Shown: piece after piece, positions 47,151-57,225 of the stretch | Position numbering within the stretch: position 1 is the stretch's first letter | How the letters are laid out: every line of letters begins with the position of its first letter | Source: Isoetes taiwanensis | Taxonomy: Eukaryota > Streptophyta > Lycopodiopsida > Isoetales > Isoetaceae | Assembly (NCBI GenBank): GCA_021234155.1 | Contig: JAJEKV010000028.1 | Coordinates: 15,065,928 to 15,129,927 of the forward strand | Length of the DNA: 64,000 bases | Direction: 5' to 3' | Made by a program: the position numbers and the translations under genes | The notes under the pieces: generated by a model | What the model was told of the DNA's origin: nothing | Seen by the model: the letters and a program-made list of their open reading frames with translations, nothing else | Databases searched by the model: none

Positions 47151-48956
47151 AATTCCCGTACCTATCTATAGGTCCTGCCCATGCAAACAACCATTGGACC
47201 AATTTATAATGTCTTTGCATCTTGTACTTCCAATACATGCTAGCATTTTGATATTGTGGAAATAGTCTATTGTAATTTTTTGCAAAAATCGTATTCTTAT
47301 TGGTTACAATGGTCTATGGAGGAACTAAAACTAACTTTCTTATTTTGCTAGTATTGCATATCTCTATTGGGCTGCAACTACGACCATTGTAGACCCTTAT
47401 ATACGGAAATAAAATTTGCATTGTGCAATGAGTTTATAAAAGGCTTAAATGAATTTCCTGTTGATGGAAAAACTTGTCAGCTTGACAACATTCAAGGGGT
47501 TCGACACTAAAGGCTTACATGTTTTTGCATGGCACAAGATGACAATCTTGAAGATGGTATCGTAAGGGCACAGGGATTTTCTCTCAAAATTTTTGGGTAC
47601 CAATAATCTGGCCACAACTAGTTATATATTCATCTAGAAAGACAACCCAATTAGCTTTCTTGTATATGCCATTCAACTCTCAGTGTCTTCCATTCTTTAG
47701 TTCCATCCATTACCTTTTCAAGTGCATTTTGTATTCGGCGTAGAAGATGAGATCCATCTGATGAGTTTGCATCACATTGGATAAAAGAAAATCTCCATCA
47801 GGAAGAAACAACAGTATATGGATCATGACTGACAAATATAAAAATCAAACTGTTCCCATTCATGATGACATCCAAAACAACCCTCACCAAAACTAGAAAG
47901 GCGACCTGCTGCAGAGTCATGTTCGGTAAGGTTTCAAGTATTAAAATTACATTACAGACCTGTTATTCAACAACCAACGAGCAAGCACATTATATATTAA
48001 AAGGCAAGCATCTAGTAGCTATTAGCTTTGACTATTTTTAAAGGCATATTCTACTGCTTATTGCATGTGCCGCCCTATGAAGCATGTCCTTCCTTTACAG
48101 GATTTTCCATGAGCCTTTCTAATTCCTACAGTTCAAAAGATAAACATTCTGAAAGGACTAAACTTTATTTCTCGTTTTAAATCCATGAACTGCACAAATG
48201 ATACTCCAATGCTTTTGAGCCACCAGGTAACTCTCCATTATGCTGCTTCATTCTGCAACTAAGTTAAAAATGTATAACTCTTCAATACTCGTGTCCAAGC
48301 AGACAAATATGTATTGAACATGCTCATAAGCTCAGAAAGAAAAACTACAACTTGGCCACATGCAAAATGTCGCATATATGGAAACATATTACTAGAGGAG
48401 GCTTAAATAATATAGCGGATAACATCATATTCGATATAATTCGTAGCCATTCTATGGCTTTAAAGCATATAACAGTTCATACATCTTGTAAATAGACTCA
48501 AGATCCAATAAAATCAAATTAACAATTATCTTAATCAATTTTCTCAAGGATCTGCGAAGAACCTGATGTATGAAACCTTCATATATCTAGATTAGGCAGA
48601 CGTCGGTGCCTATAATGGCATCGCATTAGTGCTCAACTCATTTCAAAATTTTCTATTCATCATCTTTTTGCTGTGTGTTGAAGCTCACACATTCGAGCTT
48701 CTTAGATAAACCCTGCATTTGAACTTCATGGCTTGCATTAGACATGCCATTAAGTAACTTGCATCTGTTGTTTAAGGGATACATGCTTACCTTAGCATAT
48801 GAAAGATTCAGGGAAATGTCAGGAGGCATCAGGGGCCGGATTCCAAGCAGGCTTCACACCGAATTTGGAGAAGCTGTTTAACCAAAAAATACTGGAAAGA
48901 TTTGAGCCTTGTGGTTTAGGCATTACGATTTTTATCCAGGCGATTCATTGGCCATT
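47151..48956. other. No gene seen
   Basis: AT-rich sequence without a long open frame, recognisable domain, hairpin or tandem repeat that I could find on either strand. Confidence 0.4.
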
Positions 48957-49556
48957 CAATCTGCCATTTTTTCATAGCAATGCCTTGAAAAATCAATAAC
49001 GCTCAGCCATGGCTAATAATAGAAGATCCAGCTAGTCCGACTGCCATATCCTATATCTTAGTCCAGCAAAGGGATGCGCTGCCATATCATGGACCGACTA
49101 CCGGCTAACAGTGTAAGAAGAGCCTTGCACAATAACGAGGGTGACCGCCAGTTTAAGGGCGGTAGCAGGTTTGGAGCAGTTTTCCGAATATACTAGGAAG
49201 ATACCAGTATATCCTTATTATATGCTAAGAACCCACCTCAGCGAGTGTTTGCCCTTCAACCTGCCATTTTTTCATAGCAAGGCCTTGAAAAACCAATAAC
49301 ACTCAGCCATGGCTAATAACAGAAGATGCAGTTGGTTGGCTGCCATATCCTATATCCTGGTCCAGCAAAGGGATGCGCTGCCATATCCTGGACCGGCTAC
49401 CGGCTAACAGTGTAAGAAGAGCCTTGCCCAATAACGAGGGTGACCGCCAGTTTAAGGGCAGTAGCAGGTTTGGAGCAGTTTTTCGAATATACTAGGAAGA
49501 TACTAGCATATCCTTGGTATATGCTAAGAACCCACCTCAGCGAGGGTTTGCCCCCT
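48957..49556 (+). repeat. 300-bp tandem duplication
   Basis: Two consecutive units with exact 300-base spacing: 'ctgccattttttcatagcaa' is at 48,961 and again at 49,261, 'ccggctaacagtgtaagaag' at about 49,101 and 49,401, and 'gaacccacctcagcgag' at about 49,230 and 49,528. The units differ at a few percent of positions. The second ends in 'tttgccccctaggggcaacc'. Nothing coding. Confidence 0.85.
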
Positions 49557-49939
49557 AGGGGCAACCCAAAAAACAATTTATGGAAAAGCCTGTTTTTCCA
49601 TAGATAGCAAAACAAGTGAAACATTGCAAAAAAAACAGTTTATGGAGAAGCCTCTTTTTCCATAGATAGCACGTGACAAGTGCATAACTAGGGCTATTAT
49701 TGGAAAGTTTTAATCAAGAATACTTCATTGTCAGCAGCTTTTTATGTTCTTCACATCATGGTTTGTATTTTCTATATTTTATGAAATAAATCATTGGGAC
49801 TCGAGGTCTAATTTGATGTCTCTCTTCATAACCTAGTGGCTTAATAAGTCTTCTTGATAGGTCATACTACCCTAGGTATAAAAAACGTACTACCTTAGAT
49901 GATCTCACTACAAGAGAATGATGGCTAAACGTCACAACA

Positions 49940-50156
49940 TTAGTCAGAGAGCCTTCGTAAAACAGACAAGTGTCCAAACCTTATTCCTGACGAATGAAGT
50001 GACGAGTTTTATCTGACGAATATTAGTCAGAAGATTAGTCAGAGTAAAAGTCATGTTATTAGTCATATGTTTAGTCACTCAATTAGTCACCAGTTTAGTC
50101 AGATGACTAGTCAATGTAATAGATAGAATTTTAGTCAGTTACTTAGTCAATTTGCA
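49940..50156 (+). repeat. CACTA 5' subterminal TTAGTCA array
   Basis: Ten or so copies of TTAGTCA or one-base variants (ctagtca, aaagtca), spaced about 10-20 bases apart. In En/Spm elements such short subterminal repeats are binding sites for an element-encoded protein and are needed for excision. No TNPA-like DNA-binding protein was recognised, so what binds here is open. Confidence 0.85.
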
Positions 50157-50172
50157 CCCTAGTGGCTCCGCA

Positions 50173-51604
50173 ATGAGCACCTCTGAGCACCCTAGCAACT
50201 CCGCTATGAGCACCTCCGAGCATCCCAGTGGCTCCACTTCGTCAACCAATCAATCTTCGATGCCGTCTATTGATGAGCTACGAGCATTAAGGTTTTGATC
50301 TCTCTAACTCTTTCTTTCTCATTTTGGTTTGGGCAAACATTTGATCACTTGGGTATTTATCGTTTGCCTATAGAAATGAAACTTCTTCATCTTCCACATC
50401 AAGAAAAAGACAAGCAACAAAAACTTGGCTTCGAGATGATCCATTGGAGCGACTTGCTAGGCAGTACGACAACTGTTGGTGCAAGCAATGTAAAGGCACT
50501 AGCAGAAGAATGTATACCACGAGACGAGATCACAAAATGAAGTACGGTTTGATGCCAAATGCTCCAACTCCGTCCGACCTTGAGTTAAATGCACGACAAG
50601 AAGCAGATGAGGTAACAGTGTGTATTAAGCATTTCTATTATTTATTCCATATATTATTCTAATCCTCTTTTAATATATACAACTTGTCATAGTATTTGGA
50701 CATGCTTCACAAAAAATCGAAACTTGTTTGAGACATCGATAGCCCCGTGTCGCCTAGATCATCGGGTTCGCTACCTTGGTATTCTAGAAGTTCTAGTTCT
50801 AGTTCAAAAGAGACTCGTGAAGTTGAGAGAGGTCGCATACGAGGGCAAGTACACAATTGGCTACAAAAATTAAGAACCATTTCAAGAAAAGCTCGCATAG
50901 CCTTGTTCATGCATGTGAAACAAAAAATGACATGGCTGAACAACTTCCCTCTCATCTTAGAGCCTCTATTGTTCCATTTGTTCGATCATCCCTAGGTTGT
51001 TGGGAAGGGGAATTGCCTCCAATGTTGAAAGAATTTATATATTGGGGCCATAAGTACATGATTGCACCTTCTTTAGAAATACCAGAAGCTGGAAGGGGTT
51101 TGTACATAATGGAGCACGTGAAGGTCCCATCTGGACACTCAACTGTGTTGATGGTGTTTGGCGGACCAAAGTATCCCTGGGGTTTATGGCATAAACTTGC
51201 TTCTTTTATGCCTAGTATGTCTACTTATGCCATGGCATTGAATGCGGCATCTTTGAGCGAAAGCGAGAGATCGTGGAGAACATACCCCACGCAAAGGCGC
51301 CGCGATATACATTGATGGCCGGCCAAGTGTTCATGGAAATATTGCAGCACTTATAAATAGCTCTCGTGGTCGTCCCGAATTAACAAATGCAGAATTTGAA
51401 GAGACTACAGAATATGATTCGTGTTACATGAATGGGTATGTTGGACCGTATGTGAGAGTTTGTGCCATACGCAACCTCCGTCCTGGAGAGGAATTGTTTG
51501 TCAACTATCCTTTCAAAAGAGAGACCCCAAGGCGAGTAGAACGTAAGAAGCGTGGTGAACCAATTGTTGTGCCCTACGGAAGGAAGCGTTGCCTAGATTT
51601 ATAG
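50173..51604 (+). pseudogene. SET-domain gene inside the CACTA (frame-disrupted)
   Basis: Exon 1 is 50,173-50,291 (MSTSEHPSNSA duplicated in tandem). Intron GT-AG. Exon 2 is 50,374-50,611, in phase, with a Cys cluster NCWCKQCK. Intron. Exon 3 begins at 50,693. It meets an in-frame TGA at 50,729-50,731, runs on in the same frame through a Ser-rich stretch (SPRSSGSLPWYSRSSSSSS), then changes frame near 50,850. SET features follow: IPEAGRGLYIMEHVKVPSG (about 51,075-51,135), then after another shift near 51,300 YIDGRPSVHGNIAALINSS (51,304-51,360) and RPGEELFVNY (about 51,480-51,510). These match the GxG start, the N-H/S-S pseudoknot motif and the GEE-x-Y motif of protein lysine methyltransferases. 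Pre-SET and post-SET cysteines are not seen. The substrate, if any, is unknown. Confidence 0.75.
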
Positions 51605-52012
51605 TCATGTAGCATTGCCATTTATACAAACGTTTATGATTTTAATGATGTTAATCATGTAGTGATATTGCTTAATGGTTGTGCCTAGATTTATAATCAT
51701 GTAGCATTGACATCTAAACAAAATGATGAATATTTTTCTTTTTTATGGTGTATATGGACTTTGAAGATGTTAATCATGTAGTGATATTGCTTAATGGTTG
51801 TGCCTAGATTTATAATCATATAGTGATTTATAAAGTGATATATAGTGATTTTTCTTCATATAGCATGTTTATAGCATGATTTTTCTGCATATAGCATGTT
51901 TATAATCTTATTTCCAATGCATGTTCCTTCTATATTTTTCTTTTTCTTTTTTATCATCACATGTACAAACTCCCACAAACAAATAAGTTTGGCTTGTGAA
52001 TTTGCAAAATCA
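51605..52012 (+). repeat. Spacer with 120-bp tandem duplication
   Basis: 'gttaatcatgtagtgatatt' is at about 51,649 and 51,769 (period about 120), each followed by 'gcctagatttataatcat'. The same 'cctagattta' also ends the SET coding sequence, so the duplication seems to have started from the end of that gene. It separates the SET gene from the transposase. Confidence 0.7.
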
Positions 52013-54129
52013 GCGATGATGGGAATGAAAACTCATGTGCTCAAAGTGGCTTTCATGCTGAGAGTGGTTTGATGGAAGCTATACAAAATTACTTCCCAAC
52101 CAATAACTCTAATGGTGATGATGACGGTGAGAGACCTATCACACTTTTAGAGACAGAGACCAGCAAACCACTATACCCAAATGCAAAGATATCGCGTCTC
52201 GCTGCATGCATACTCATCCTCAACCTACAACACAAATTAAACTGGAGTAATAATAGTGTAGATGATCTTCTAAGGTGAGTAATTTGGTTTGAGTTGCAAG
52301 TTTTCATTCGTCATTTTTTTTTCTCACTTGATATTTCTTTTTTTTTTATTCTAACAGTTTGCTAGCTGACTATATACTTCCAAGTGATCATTGTCTTCCA
52401 AAATCAAGGAGGGGCATTAAACAACTTTTGCAAGAACTAGGTTTGCAATACAAATGCATTCATGCATGTGTAAATGATTGTATACTTTTTCGCAATGAAT
52501 ACAGTGAGATGAATGTATGTCCCAAGTGCAATGAGCCACGATATGATGAAAAAGCAAAGTCTAAAGTGCCAAAGAAAGTCTTGCGACATATGCCAATCAT
52601 TCCACGTCTTCAAGTTATGTTTAAATGTCCTTCTCTAGCCCAATTCATGGACTTTCATGCAAAACATCGAAGCAATGATGGTGTCTTGAGATATCCAACC
52701 GATGGTGAGGCATTAAAACATATAGAAGACAAATGGAAGCATTTTAAGGATGAGCCTAGGAACGTTCGTTTGGCTTTGGGCATGGATGGTGTTAGTCCAT
52801 TTAGCACATTGTCGTCTACTTATAGTGTTTGGCCCATTGTTGTTATAAACTACAATATACCACCTTGGATGGCAACTAAAGCAGGCCATTTAATGCTCAC
52901 ACTGATAGTTCCAGGTAAATATCTCTACATAGCATTGCAACTTGTCTTTATATAGGTTACGATTTTTTGGATTTATATTTGAATAATATATATATTTAGG
53001 CAAATACCAAGTGAAGGATATGAATGTGTACTTGGAACCTCTTGTGGAGGAACTTGACACTTTATGGAGAGGAATACGTATGTATGATATTTCGAGACAA
53101 CCACACAATTTCATGTTTCATGGTATATTATGTTTCACTATTCATGACTATCCCGGACTTGGTGTTGCGTCAGGTATAATGTTGTCATCCATATTCTTAT
53201 TTTAGATTATTTTCTACTATATTATAGATTTGAATTACTTTGCAGGACTGCAAACTAGTGGAAAATGTGGATGTCCATCATGTGGCCAAGAATTGACATC
53301 TTATAGATCAAAGCACCTATCGAAGATGATATACACAAACCACAAAAAATATTTACCATTGGATCATGAGTTTCGTCGTGGTGATACATCTGATGTGCCT
53401 AGAAGAAGAACTCCACATGATTGGTTGCAAACATGGAATGATCATGACCTAAACAGTTCTGCACCTCCACCTGGCATGAAGAGACTATCCATCTTATACA
53501 AGTTGGAATACTGGTCTGAATTGAAGATTGCACATCTATTGGATCCCATGCATATTTTTAAGAATGTAAGCCATTCACTTTGGCGACATCTTACAGGAGA
53601 TTGGGAGACTCTTAATGCTAGAAATGATTTAAAGGATAACAACATCAAAACAGAATTGTGGCCTATCATAGAAGAAGGCAAAGCTCCTCGCTTTCGTCGA
53701 GGTCCTTGGGTATTGAAAAGGGATGAACTCAAACAAGTGAAAAACTCTATTAAAACTCTTCGCACTCCAACTGGTCATGGCTCCTCCCTAAGAAGGGCAT
53801 TCACAAAAGATGGAGATCTCACCGGCTTAAAGTCGCATGATTGGCACAACTTTCTACAGGTATTTATACTATAGGATAAACAATATTGACAACTTGTATG
53901 GACGACTAATTAATTGTTTTTTTGTCTCGTTACAGTATATTCTCCCATGTGCCTTGGAGAATTGCCTCACGCCTTCTATCCGGAAGGTCATCTATAGACT
54001 CGCTAGCTTTTCTAGGTGGGTGTCTTCTAAAGAGATTGTAGTCATGATATTCCCACTATGGAAATAGAGATTGCAGAGATATTATGCCGCTTAGAACACT
54101 TATTTCCAACTAGCTTTTTTGATCTTCAG
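52013..54129 (+). CDS. CACTA transposase, TNP2 family (5' and central part)
   Basis: Exons with GT-AG borders: about 52,013-52,274, 52,358-52,914, 53,000-53,173, 53,246-53,859 and 53,936-54,129. Joined, they give a TNP2-type transposase: KPLYPNAKISRLAACILIL, a zinc-type CPKCNEPRY, LALGMDGVSPF, FHGILCFTIHDYPGLGVASG, CGCPSCGQEL, IAHLLDPMHIFKNVSHSLW and LKSHDWHNFLQYILPCALEN. These are the order and spacing of Transposase_21 (DDE-type) followed by DUF4218. The frame is open through four introns, with a shift near 54,040. The enzyme would cut at the CACTA ends. The first exon start is uncertain. Confidence 0.87.
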
Positions 54130-54191
54130 GTACGTAGCTAGTTGAATAAGTTACACATTGGCAATTACACGTTATTAAGTGTGATCATCAG

Positions 54192-55634
54192 GTACACTTG
54201 TTGGTGCATTTGCCACAAGAGATTTTGCTCGTGGGTCCAAACCCCTCTAGATGGATGTTCTTTTGGAGAGATATATGAAGGTATTAAAAGGCTTTGTGCT
54301 TGAGGATGGCTAGGCCCGAGGGATGTATGGCGTAAGGACACCTTGTTCAGAGACATTATTTTTCTTAACAGATGCCACAACATCAATAGATCCAAATGCA
54401 CCAAAGATTTGGAAGAAGGAGGCTCCCCGATTGGTTAGAAGGTGAAGTTTTACAAGGTCGGGGTAAGCAAATAAGGTTAAGTGACGAGATGTTTGAAGGC
54501 ATCAACAAATTCAGTATTGAACAATGCGATGGTCTCACCGTGGGTGGAACTCTATAAAGTTGAGAAGGCACAAAGAGATAATGATAGAAAAACATATGCT
54601 GCAAGGAATCGTCGAGGACGTCATAGGAGAGTACAATATCCTCCAGAACTAAGGCCCCTCCCTGATAATCCCCCCTCTTGGTGGCTATCTGAAAAGCTTT
54701 GGGAGGCTGAAGGCAATGGAGAAAAAATACAAGAAGATGATCTCAACATTGCACTTGGGTGTAATAGATCAGTACGTCTGAATTTGTTATTGTTATTGTT
54801 ATTGTTATTGCATTCATAATATGTGACACTTGAGTTTTTATTCAATTTGCAGGCTAGGTTCCATAATTCAATGTGGGCTTATGGTCAACATTTTCGAATT
54901 GATAGCATTGACAAAGCTCGCGTCACTTGTGATTCTGGAATAATTGCCTCATTTGACCAAAAAAGTCGAGCAAGCGCTAGAGATGATAATCTTGTTGATG
55001 GAGAGCTTGAATATGTCGGAGTTATTACTGATATTATTGATGTGGATTTTCGTTCATTTCGACAGACCATCCTAAAAGCGAAATGGTTCAAGCCTCTATA
55101 CCGCGGAAGAAATCAAACAAAGGCGCCACATCCATCCGGGTTTTTTTTGAAGTTGATTCCACGATGTATTAGTAGATGTAAGTGAGCCGCTTGTGTATCC
55201 ACAACAAGTTCAAAGAAGTATTTTTCCATGTCAACCCTCAAAACAAAGACATGGTGGATTGTAATCCCTACAACCAACCAACATCACGTAGACACGTTCC
55301 AAATGTAACCCTTGAGGAAGAAGAGGAGGAACACGAGGAAGATTTAGAGCATGGCCAAGAATTGGAATTTGTGGAATGTGAGGAAGATATAGAGCATGAG
55401 CAAGAATTGGAATTTTTGGAGACACAAAATCTAGAAGATTATGAAGCTCAAGGGCAAACCACCAATGAAGAATTGAGATCACCAATGCACTCCCCAATGG
55501 CAGAAGATTATATTGAAGAGGAGGAAGACGTTGACCTTCAAATGCCAAATATACGACGAAGGCTGCTTTTACAACTAGACGATGATGAATGGAATGATAT
55601 ACAAGATGATATCTTGGATGAGGATTTCATATGA
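54192..55634 (+). pseudogene. CACTA transposase, C-terminal part (DUF4218 end, DUF4216, acidic tail)
   Basis: Continues the transposase. VHLLVHLPQEILLVGPNPS and, after a shift near 54,270, ERYMKVLKGFV match the end of DUF4218. The exon at about 54,481-54,770 has YPPELRPLPDNPPSWW. After an intron with a (TTATTG)n microsatellite, the exon from 54,853 gives DUF4216 (FHNSMWAYGQHFRID...GELEYVGVITDIIDVDF, WFKPLYRG). A strongly acidic tail rich in EEEEEHEEDLEHGQELEF-type repeats ends at TGA 55,632-55,634, with a probable shift near 55,180. Several frameshifts near 54,200-54,480 and 55,180 mean it is not translatable as read. Confidence 0.75.
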
Positions 55635-55949
55635 CAAAAGACTAGAGATCATATTTCACACTGTTGTGTTCTATATGTATCACAATTAACTTTTTTTTTT
55701 TTTAAGTATGTATTTCATATAGTGCTCGAATTATTTTTATTCCTAATCGTTTTCATGTTTAAAGTTACATTGATAGGAGAAAAAAAAGCAAAGTTCCTTA
55801 CAATGGAGTTGTTGAACATGTTTTCAGACTAGAAAACACACTTGGGATAAGTGTTCATGATATTGGATAAAGTAGACATGATATTGGACAATTGATATCA
55901 TATATGACGAGTATACAATGTTAATCACCTTATAAGTCAATCAATTACT
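55635..55949. other. 3' untranslated/spacer region of the CACTA
   Basis: AT-rich sequence after the transposase stop, with a T-run at about 55,691-55,704. No open frame of note. It leads into the 3' subterminal repeats. Confidence 0.5.
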
Positions 55950-56290
55950 CATAATCTTAGTAACAATATTAGTCACCTTTTTAGTCACTTTTTTAGTTTG
56001 ACTATTAGTCTGTAGCTATAGTCAAATGTATAGTCAGATATTTAGTCAACCAATTAGTCAAACTATTAGTCATGCATTATAGTCAAACTTATAGTCAGAC
56101 ATATCGTCAGAAAGTAACAGTCAGCATATTAGTCAGTGTAATGGTCATGACAATAAACAATGGTTTAGTCATTGTTATAGTCAAAATATTCGTCAGGTAA
56201 AACGTCAATATGCATTTAGTCATAGATTTAGTCAGTTTATTAGTCAGTATTAAACGTCAGTTTTTTTCGTCATATGATTAGTCACTATAA
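55950..56290 (+). repeat. CACTA 3' subterminal TTAGTCA array
   Basis: More than fifteen copies of TTAGTCA or variants (atagtca, aacgtca), in the same orientation as at the 5' end, up to about 80 bases from the terminus. Confidence 0.87.
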
Positions 56291-56369
56291 ACGGCACATA
56301 GACATTTCACAGATAGTTTTTGAGCCTCTGACGAATTATCTGACTAAAAGTAGTCATTCTCTTGTAGTG

Positions 56370-57225
56370 TCTGAGCTCCCTTTATGTGTTAAGTGCAACT
56401 AGAGTCAAATTTTCCCTAGAGCCATTACTACTGATGGAGTGTCGTTAGAATTGTTTTCGTTATTTTTGCAATTTCGTTATTTTTGCTAGATCCACATGCA
56501 CGCTCTTAGATTGGATACCCCATAGTCTACTCGTGCAATGCCGTCTCATATTTTAGAAACATCAAGTATCACATTTTAAGAACTTTGGCACCATTCCAAA
56601 GTTACACAAATTTCCCCTGCATGAGTGAGTTGACGGAGAGAAATGTTCGCGGCGGCCTTGACTGCCGCGATAAATTTCTAGTATTAATAAAACATCAAAT
56701 GATACAAATGAAGAGCAATTAAGCAAAGAACAAACCTTCCATAAGGCATCTTCTTTCCTTCTTTATAGGCAATTTTAAGTCGTATTCTTCATGAATCCTG
56801 GCCATTTCCTCTGGCTTTCATTAAGATTCGGTTATATTCTGAAGTAAGAAACATATTGACTTTAAACTGGGTACTTAGTAGGTACTATCTCCACACTTTT
56901 AGGGCTCATAATATTGCAAATAACTTCTATTATGCCCAAGATGTCATGAAAAAATCCGAAGTTCACATTTATTGACGCCCAAAACGGAAACAATCTCAAA
57001 CCCAAACTTCATAGATGATCTCCCTCAATTCTATCATTTTAATATCTCTTACACCACCTTCAAGAAGGCACGCAACAATGATGGTGAAAGAAGCCATAAA
57101 CAGTAAACGATTAACCTCCGGTCTGAGAGAAGTTGTCTTATCTCCATTAGATCACAATTGTAAGTCTAAGGTAAACTTAAGAGTTGTTTGACGTATTAGA
57201 TGAGATGAAACACGTGACATCGAAT
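56370..57225. other. Intergenic; short GC-rich foldback
   Basis: At 56,649-56,690 'gcggcggcc ttgac tgccgc' folds back and is followed by the complement of AGAAATTTATCGCGGC, a phrase also found at 20,575-20,590. Otherwise AT-rich with nothing recognised. Confidence 0.4.

Follow-up and report, generated by a model that had tools for sequence, protein, structure and literature searches.

Is a SET-domain (histone methyltransferase-like) gene that lies between the ends of a CACTA transposon a captured host gene, or is it a working part of the element? The question is raised by a 64,000-nucleotide stretch of the Isoetes taiwanensis genome (contig JAJEKV010000028.1, positions 15,065,928 to 15,129,927 of the forward strand), hereafter the window, in which a CACTA element occupies positions 49906–56369. 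A preliminary description, made from the sequence without database searches, had placed a TNP2 transposase and a SET gene inside this element, and had offered two readings, namely a captured host gene or a CACTA lineage that brings its own chromatin modifier. The answer that we prefer, with a probability of roughly one in two, is that the SET sequence is an extra terminal exon in the CACTA transposase gene. A zinc-finger-like exon, probably a relative of the Transposase-associated domain (TAD, PF13963), would then be shared by a TAD-TNP2 and a TAD-SET protein, both targeted to the element, with an effect against silencing as the preferred outcome. This answer is built on sequence, from which splicing, DNA targeting, enzymatic activity and the sign of the effect are inferred. 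Our genome comparisons considered Isoetes taiwanensis alone (one genome). The genome counts given below should be taken as lower bounds, and the totals of first-look candidates are rough.

The window element and its SET domain

The element is bounded by perfect 16-bp terminal inverted repeats, CACTACAAGAGAATGA at 49906–49921 on the plus strand and its exact reverse complement at 56354–56369 on the minus strand, and by TCT target-site duplications at 49903–49905 and 56370–56372, all of which were read directly and agree with the preliminary description. The first 15 bases of the 5' repeat are also present at both ends of the full-length copies C58, C1030, C963 and C1056. There are 9 copies of the motif TTAGTCA in the initial 300 bp, none in the middle and 12, counting both strands, in the last 514 bp (55856–56369; 11 on the plus and 1 on the minus strand), which is the layout of CACTA-type subterminal repeat arrays. 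The transposase was likewise recovered. The TNP2 gene, with several exons and approximate outer limits of 52000–55634 on the plus strand (from open reading frames (ORFs), Pfam and alignment), matches PF02992 (Transposase_21/tnp2) at 52677–53388 in three pieces (52677–52922, 53011–53184 and 53230–53388), the E-values in three consecutive ORFs being 2.9e-29, 2.2e-13 and 1.2e-08. Among the scanned ORFs, Pfam named no Harbinger-type transposase family and no family of TnpA-like second DNA-binding proteins, the latter being described as very diverse among CACTA elements (PMC2613891; papers are cited by PMC number for the excerpts drawn on here).

The exons of the window element are predictions, exon 1 by eye, and all splice sites and phases are sequence readings. 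Predicted exon 1 (50206–50291, plus strand) runs from a start codon to a donor in phase 2, the placement resting on sequence and alignment; its start codon is present in C1056, C963 and C908b and absent from C1093b, C1019 and C907b in the alignment. Predicted exon 2 (50374–50611, plus strand), with the donor GAG/GT in phase 0, is the zinc-finger-like exon. Predicted exon 3 (50693–51604, plus strand), with an acceptor in phase 0 and a stop of its own, is the SET exon, whose frame is broken in the window copy: it is split over the offset ORFs 50827–51315 and 51257–51604, with further breaks upstream. The SET motifs quoted in the preliminary description are present in the translations, and PF00856 (SET) matches at 51299–51508 on the plus strand (residues 15–84 of ORF 51257–51601, profile positions 47–104 of 105) with an E-value of 4.4e-06 and 27.5 bits against a cut-off of 22.4. 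As 17 of 20 SET translations from different copies match PF00856 at an E-value of 0.01 or better, and as the best 40 of 174 genome places share 82–100% DNA identity, the match is not a chance one.

Structure prediction points in the same direction, with the reservation that the usable model is that of a relative rather than of the window copy. AlphaFold gave no usable model for the window-family sequence L010 (a shallow alignment of 20 near copies; mean predicted local distance difference test score, pLDDT, of 35), while the relative L087, modelled with 22 sequences of several families, reached a predicted template modelling score of 0.68, with block mean pLDDT values of 64–95 over residues 81–270. 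With this model, Foldseek returned 180 PDB matches at an E-value of 0.001 or lower, the top 50 of which are, by title, SET enzymes or complexes holding one, MLL1 being the best (2.7e-06). Structural alignment by VIA-align to the MLL1 SET domain gave a best Z of 10.7 over 120 residues, at 2.2 Å and 27% identity, and chains of SET1/COMPASS, SET7/9 and PRC2 tied within 1 Z unit; because of this tie, the fold does not tell which substrate is used. Sequence searches of the PDB found no SET chain. What the model shows is the SET fold of this relative.

Recurrence, selection and gene order

For the explanation that the SET gene is a fragment of a host gene which a single CACTA family picked up as a passenger, one could point to the capture of genes by CACTA elements in general, to a kinase fragment that these very copies hold, and to the broken frame of the window copy. 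DNA queries taken from the 5' end, the SET stretch, the TNP2 stretch and the 3' end of the element were scored for the best 40 of 312, 174, 414 and 135 first-look candidates, respectively. Among the 40 best-scored SET places, 22 have a listed TNP2 1.6–5.4 kb downstream on the same strand, 16 have a 5' end listed no more than 25 kb upstream and 10 have both, while an intact frame of at least 286 residues, stop to stop through three SET motifs, is found in 10. The 10 most diverged places (82–84% DNA identity) have neither TNP2 nor a 5' end among the matches listed; four of them were fetched, and TNP2 lies behind SET in all four. One of these, C908b, is a complete element of 12,519 bp with exact CACTA ends and a GAA/GAA duplication, holding SET and TNP2 inside, and is the only one of the four with both ends, C907b having a 5' end and C1093b a 3' end candidate. 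The subterminal motif varies by subfamily, being CATCAGA/GCATCAG-rich with TAGTCAG in C908b and TTAGTCA in the window family, a difference that would allow co-change with the zinc-finger exon to be tested. In the window family, 18 TNP2 matches have no listed SET, and the sequence upstream of four of these was fetched. C1036 retains a 74-residue SET remnant upstream of TNP2, C1040 and C1039 carry internal deletions that run across SET, and C1110 shows no SET match in its 3 kb upstream of TNP2.

For selection we used the ratio of nonsynonymous to synonymous divergence (dN/dS) in 11 of the 40 SET copies, namely the 10 with the intact frame (through ELFVNY or ELFVDY) and C47 (252 residues); this choice of intact copies introduces a slight bias against disabling changes. 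The ratio is 0.10–0.27 in all 55 pairs (224–225 codons, dS 0.06–0.78). Over whole loci, and with the broken window copy and C963 left out, it is 0.16–0.24 for SET and 0.12–0.25 for the TNP2 core; pairs that include either of these two copies reach 0.67 for SET, 0.39 for the TNP2 core and, in a later exon of TNP2, 0.73. Ratios for the TAD exon are 0.18–0.64. Synonymous divergences among C908b, C1093b and C907b are alike for SET (0.50–0.71) and TNP2 (0.46–0.66), whereas in pairs with C1019 the TNP2 value is clearly the higher, and in pairs of C1056 with C908b and C1093b it is somewhat the lower. The SET exon is under purifying selection of about the same strength as the transposase, and the plain reading of these ratios is that SET travelled with TNP2 and was kept about as strictly.

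The same arrangement extends to other families. SET protein identity to C1056 falls to 53% in C1034, 38% in C1027 and C222 and 35% in C1048; the first three show the order TAD-like exon, SET exon, TNP2, and C1048 has TAD and SET. No matching CACTA ends were found for these four within the stretches examined. Two of the four come from the TAD-SET pairs counted below, and two from other SET places. In the genome at large, profile searches found PF13963 at no fewer than 145 places and PF00856 at no fewer than 147, the PF02992 search scored the best 150 of 2311 first-look candidates, and the C1048 SET protein as a query gave 1624 first-look candidates, of which the best 150 were scored, with 151 matches, 150 of them listed. 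Twenty TAD-SET pairs (0.02 expected) have SET on the same strand at a distance of 707–854 bp downstream. A listed TNP2 follows within 6 kb at 40 of the 150 SET places listed (0.04 expected), and at 37 of these the distance is 1.2–1.8 kb; among the matches listed, the reverse order occurs in neither case. SET lies within 3 kb downstream of 38 of 145 listed TAD places. The 43 listed TAD-TNP2 pairs separate by distance: 19 are at 0.81–1.04 kb, none with a listed SET; 12 have a listed SET, 11 of them at 1.94–2.18 kb and one at 3.7 kb; and the other 12, without a listed SET, are at 1.48–5.99 kb, seven of them at 2.12–2.22 kb, where SET may simply fall outside the scored 150. As read from these distances, the SET exon is placed between TAD and TNP2, which in SET-less CACTA elements of the same genome lie about 1.2 kb closer together.

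These results leave the passenger explanation very improbable and largely refuted, the search for a near-identical host gene having covered the 150 best-scored matches. SET holds the same gene position in families at 35–53% protein identity, and its dN/dS resembles that of the transposase. A true captured passenger is available for comparison, namely the receptor-kinase fragment of the full-length copies (PF00069 at an E-value of 1.2e-15 in the C1056 ORF L007:2977–3804, with similar ORFs in C58 and C1030, and with leucine-rich-repeat-like stretches upstream of it by eye). C963 is without this kinase DNA, yet it has SET. The one-off capture considered in the preliminary description is therefore abandoned, given the recurrent position in diverged elements and the purifying selection. 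Its other reading, a CACTA lineage carrying SET, fits every test that was run for the lineage and for the SET fold: other members carry SET, including diverged subfamilies and four further families, the profile search finds the domain, and frame-intact copies exist. The remaining part of that reading, that the SET protein modifies chromatin and influences silencing, is taken up conditionally below.

Both the SET and the TNP2 tree split the window family and C1034 from C222 and C1027 (and from C1048 for SET), with local supports of at least 0.945. The SET-less C942 (L073) and C1031x (L074) group with C1027 in the TNP2 tree (0.975), which suggests that SET was lost in these two. With canonical elements as outgroup, a single acquisition of SET would suffice, the root being an assumption. 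In a small tree, two host SET stretches fall outside the transposon SETs, and these are too few to show the source of SET. Scans of viral and of bacterial and archaeal contigs with the 22-sequence alignment A3 found no relative, nor did a search of phage records with one SET protein.

Two predicted products and their possible action

The splice phases bear on how TAD, SET and TNP2 could form one gene. Phase 0 is predicted for the TAD (exon 2) donor and for the SET acceptor in the window family, C1034, C1027 and C1048, and for the TNP2 acceptor in the window family and C1034. The same phase is predicted for both TAD donor and TNP2 acceptor in elements without SET, namely the canonical C1039can and the C1048-family sisters C942 and C1031x. 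These phases would let the zinc-finger exon join either SET or TNP2, and the simplest reading of them is a single gene whose 3' exons are alternatives. A single TAD-SET-TNP2 protein was also considered and set aside, as the stop of the SET exon is at a conserved place and no conserved GT donor lies just before it.

Several observations weigh against the preferred explanation and should be considered together. The phase between exon 2 and SET could not be made consistent in C222, and no exon 2 donor is present in C907b. For TNP2, a possible alternative acceptor lies 5 bases further downstream; being in phase 2, it would match exon 1 and not exon 2. The first TNP2 exon also contains an ATG in frame, common to the window family and its subfamilies and not at that place in C1034, with which TNP2 could have a start of its own. 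The identity of the zinc-finger exon is also less firm than its position. Window exon 2 has no direct Pfam match at E-values up to 1. The PF13963 matches upstream of SET in related families, including those in all 20 TAD-SET pairs, fall below the curated cut-off, and 24 TAD matches above it have no listed SET. In hhalign, window exon 2 is linked to intermediate families at 93.5% and these to the canonical set at 31%, while the direct comparison of the window exon to the canonical set gives 2%. The 9.8-kb stretch of C1048 holds no TNP2 match. The SET-less sisters C942 and C1031x, whose TAD exon shares 88% protein identity over 43 residues with that of C1048 (L072) and is followed directly by TNP2, indicate that SET is dispensable in some lineages. 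Finally, the His of the NHSC motif is replaced by Ser in all 22 sequences of A3, which makes catalysis uncertain and weakened or lost activity possible. It is because the TAD matches beside SET are below the Pfam cut-off, and because the 5' exon of TNP2 allows other readings, that we do not rate this explanation higher.

The last of these points is also an argument for a rather unlikely alternative, in which the SET protein is a pseudo-enzyme that binds DNA, chromatin or S-adenosylmethionine without methylating and serves the group in an architectural role like that of TnpA. Canonical SET methyltransferases have the NH of the NHSC motif, and the plant proteins SUVH2 and SUVH9 are SET proteins that act without methylating. 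This alternative is further favored in that a conserved second protein other than SET was not seen; in C908b, the 7 kb upstream of the TAD exon have no DNA match to the window family. Against it, the Gly of the first motif, HGN and the N of INSS are invariant in A3, with G-x-E-L-x3-Tyr nearly so, and AG..L, HGN, INSS and G.EL...Y are invariant in the nine sequences of alignment A2. The Tyr after G-x-E-L, which is catalytic in SET methyltransferases, is present in nine of nine A2 sequences and nearly invariant in A3. Moreover, the closest folds include active H3K4 enzymes, and PRDM9, an active enzyme that departs from NHSC as well, is among the fold matches.

Under the preferred explanation of an extra terminal exon, one pre-mRNA would give two proteins with a common N-terminus, the transposase TAD-TNP2 and a TAD-SET protein ending at the stop of the SET exon. 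The shared TAD would bring both to the DNA of the element, probably to the subterminal repeat arrays. There, methylation by the SET protein would fall on histones in the chromatin of the element itself or, with lower probability, on some other protein. The likeliest net effect would be to keep the element open to expression and transposition despite silencing by the host, the role that TnpA plays in En/Spm. Anti-silencing is the sign that we prefer, with moderate confidence. The opposite sign, a repressive or self-limiting enzyme that marks the chromatin of the element or methylates the transposase and thereby caps copy number or steers insertion, seems unlikely to us. The tie among the fold matches, which lies between activating (MLL, SET1, SET7/9) and repressive (EZH2) enzymes, speaks for it, but a SET exon of benefit to its own copies would account more readily for the selection within the element, and the known second protein of CACTA elements, TnpA, activates (PMC10398659). 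A broader reading is that a large, old CACTA clade swapped its TnpA-type helper for a chromatin enzyme from the same gene, so that a shared zinc-finger exon, spliced to either transposase or SET methyltransferase, would yield a matched cutter and histone-marking anti-silencer in one module aiming at its own ends. We offer it tentatively, as a possibility that we would not expect to hold in full.

Known systems and further features of the copies

The nearest precedent is En/Spm, where tnpA and tnpD arise from one transcript by alternative splicing, TnpA binds the subterminal repeats (PMC2613891) and Spm, when activated by TnpA, loses DNA methylation (PMC10398659). The elements described here resemble it in CACTA ends, a 3-bp duplication, TNP2, subterminal arrays and a one-strand layout that allows two products (PMC2613891), but differ in that the second product would have a SET domain. 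In the portion that the lineages have in common, no protein resembling TnpA was recognised. SET methyltransferase genes in DNA transposons have already been published for the HarbingerS and MuDR elements of Phytophthora (PMC12730594). These are, however, other transposase superfamilies in oomycete hosts, whereas here the SET exon lies inside a CACTA transposase gene in a plant. VANDAL elements of Arabidopsis offer an analogy only: their factor VANC counters silencing sequence-specifically, but they are another element type, and the excerpt mentions no SET enzyme for them (PMC10398659). SETMAR/Metnase combines SET with a part that derives from a transposase and targets the ends of transposons, but this is a transposase-derived protein of the human genome and not a gene carried by an element (PMC8327481). 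A search of the literature by title and start of abstract, with Repbase Reports and most subscription journals outside its coverage, found no SET in CACTA elements. None was reported in the excerpts of PMC12730594, PMC8616336, PMC1633745, PMC2874221, PMC12077169, PMC3720673 and PMC4158355, and a term search of the available text of a 2026 review of gene capture by plant transposons (PMC13317346) returned neither 'histone' nor 'SET domain' nor 'methyltransferase'.

Plant transposons are mostly viewed as being on the receiving end of histone and DNA methylation by the host. A group of elements that keeps a SET exon of its own makes element-driven histone marking directly testable, with the enzyme, the presumed guide domain and the presumed target repeats all in one many-copy element family. 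Natural controls exist in one genome, as the SET-bearing C1048 and the SET-less C942 have nearly the same zinc-finger exon. For annotators, the number of candidates found with the C1048 SET query is a warning that a SET match in a plant genome may come from a transposon gene.

The window copy itself is a damaged deletion derivative. Its 5' terminal and subterminal block with TTAGTCA repeats (49906–50153, plus strand, 248 bp) is 100% identical to C1030, after which it lacks about 5.96 kb that C1030 and C58 contain, the junction lying at 50153/50154 (element positions 308/309, corresponding to C1030 314/6275). The full-length copies measure 12,341 bp (C58), 12,406 bp (C1030), 11,769 bp (C1056) and 11,615 bp (C963), and the window copy is, judging from its sequence, probably not autonomous. 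Near the 5' end of full-length copies lies a 186-residue minus-strand ORF (C963, L005:841–1398; a similar one in C1056), which has no Pfam match at E-values up to 1. A 74-bp direct repeat of 92% identity, common to C1030 and C1056, follows the SET stop at 51632–51704 and 51750–51823. Just 5' of the element, at 48948–49553, a unit of about 300 bp is duplicated in tandem, with blocks of 214 and 89 bp at 94 and 89% identity and a spacing of 299–300.

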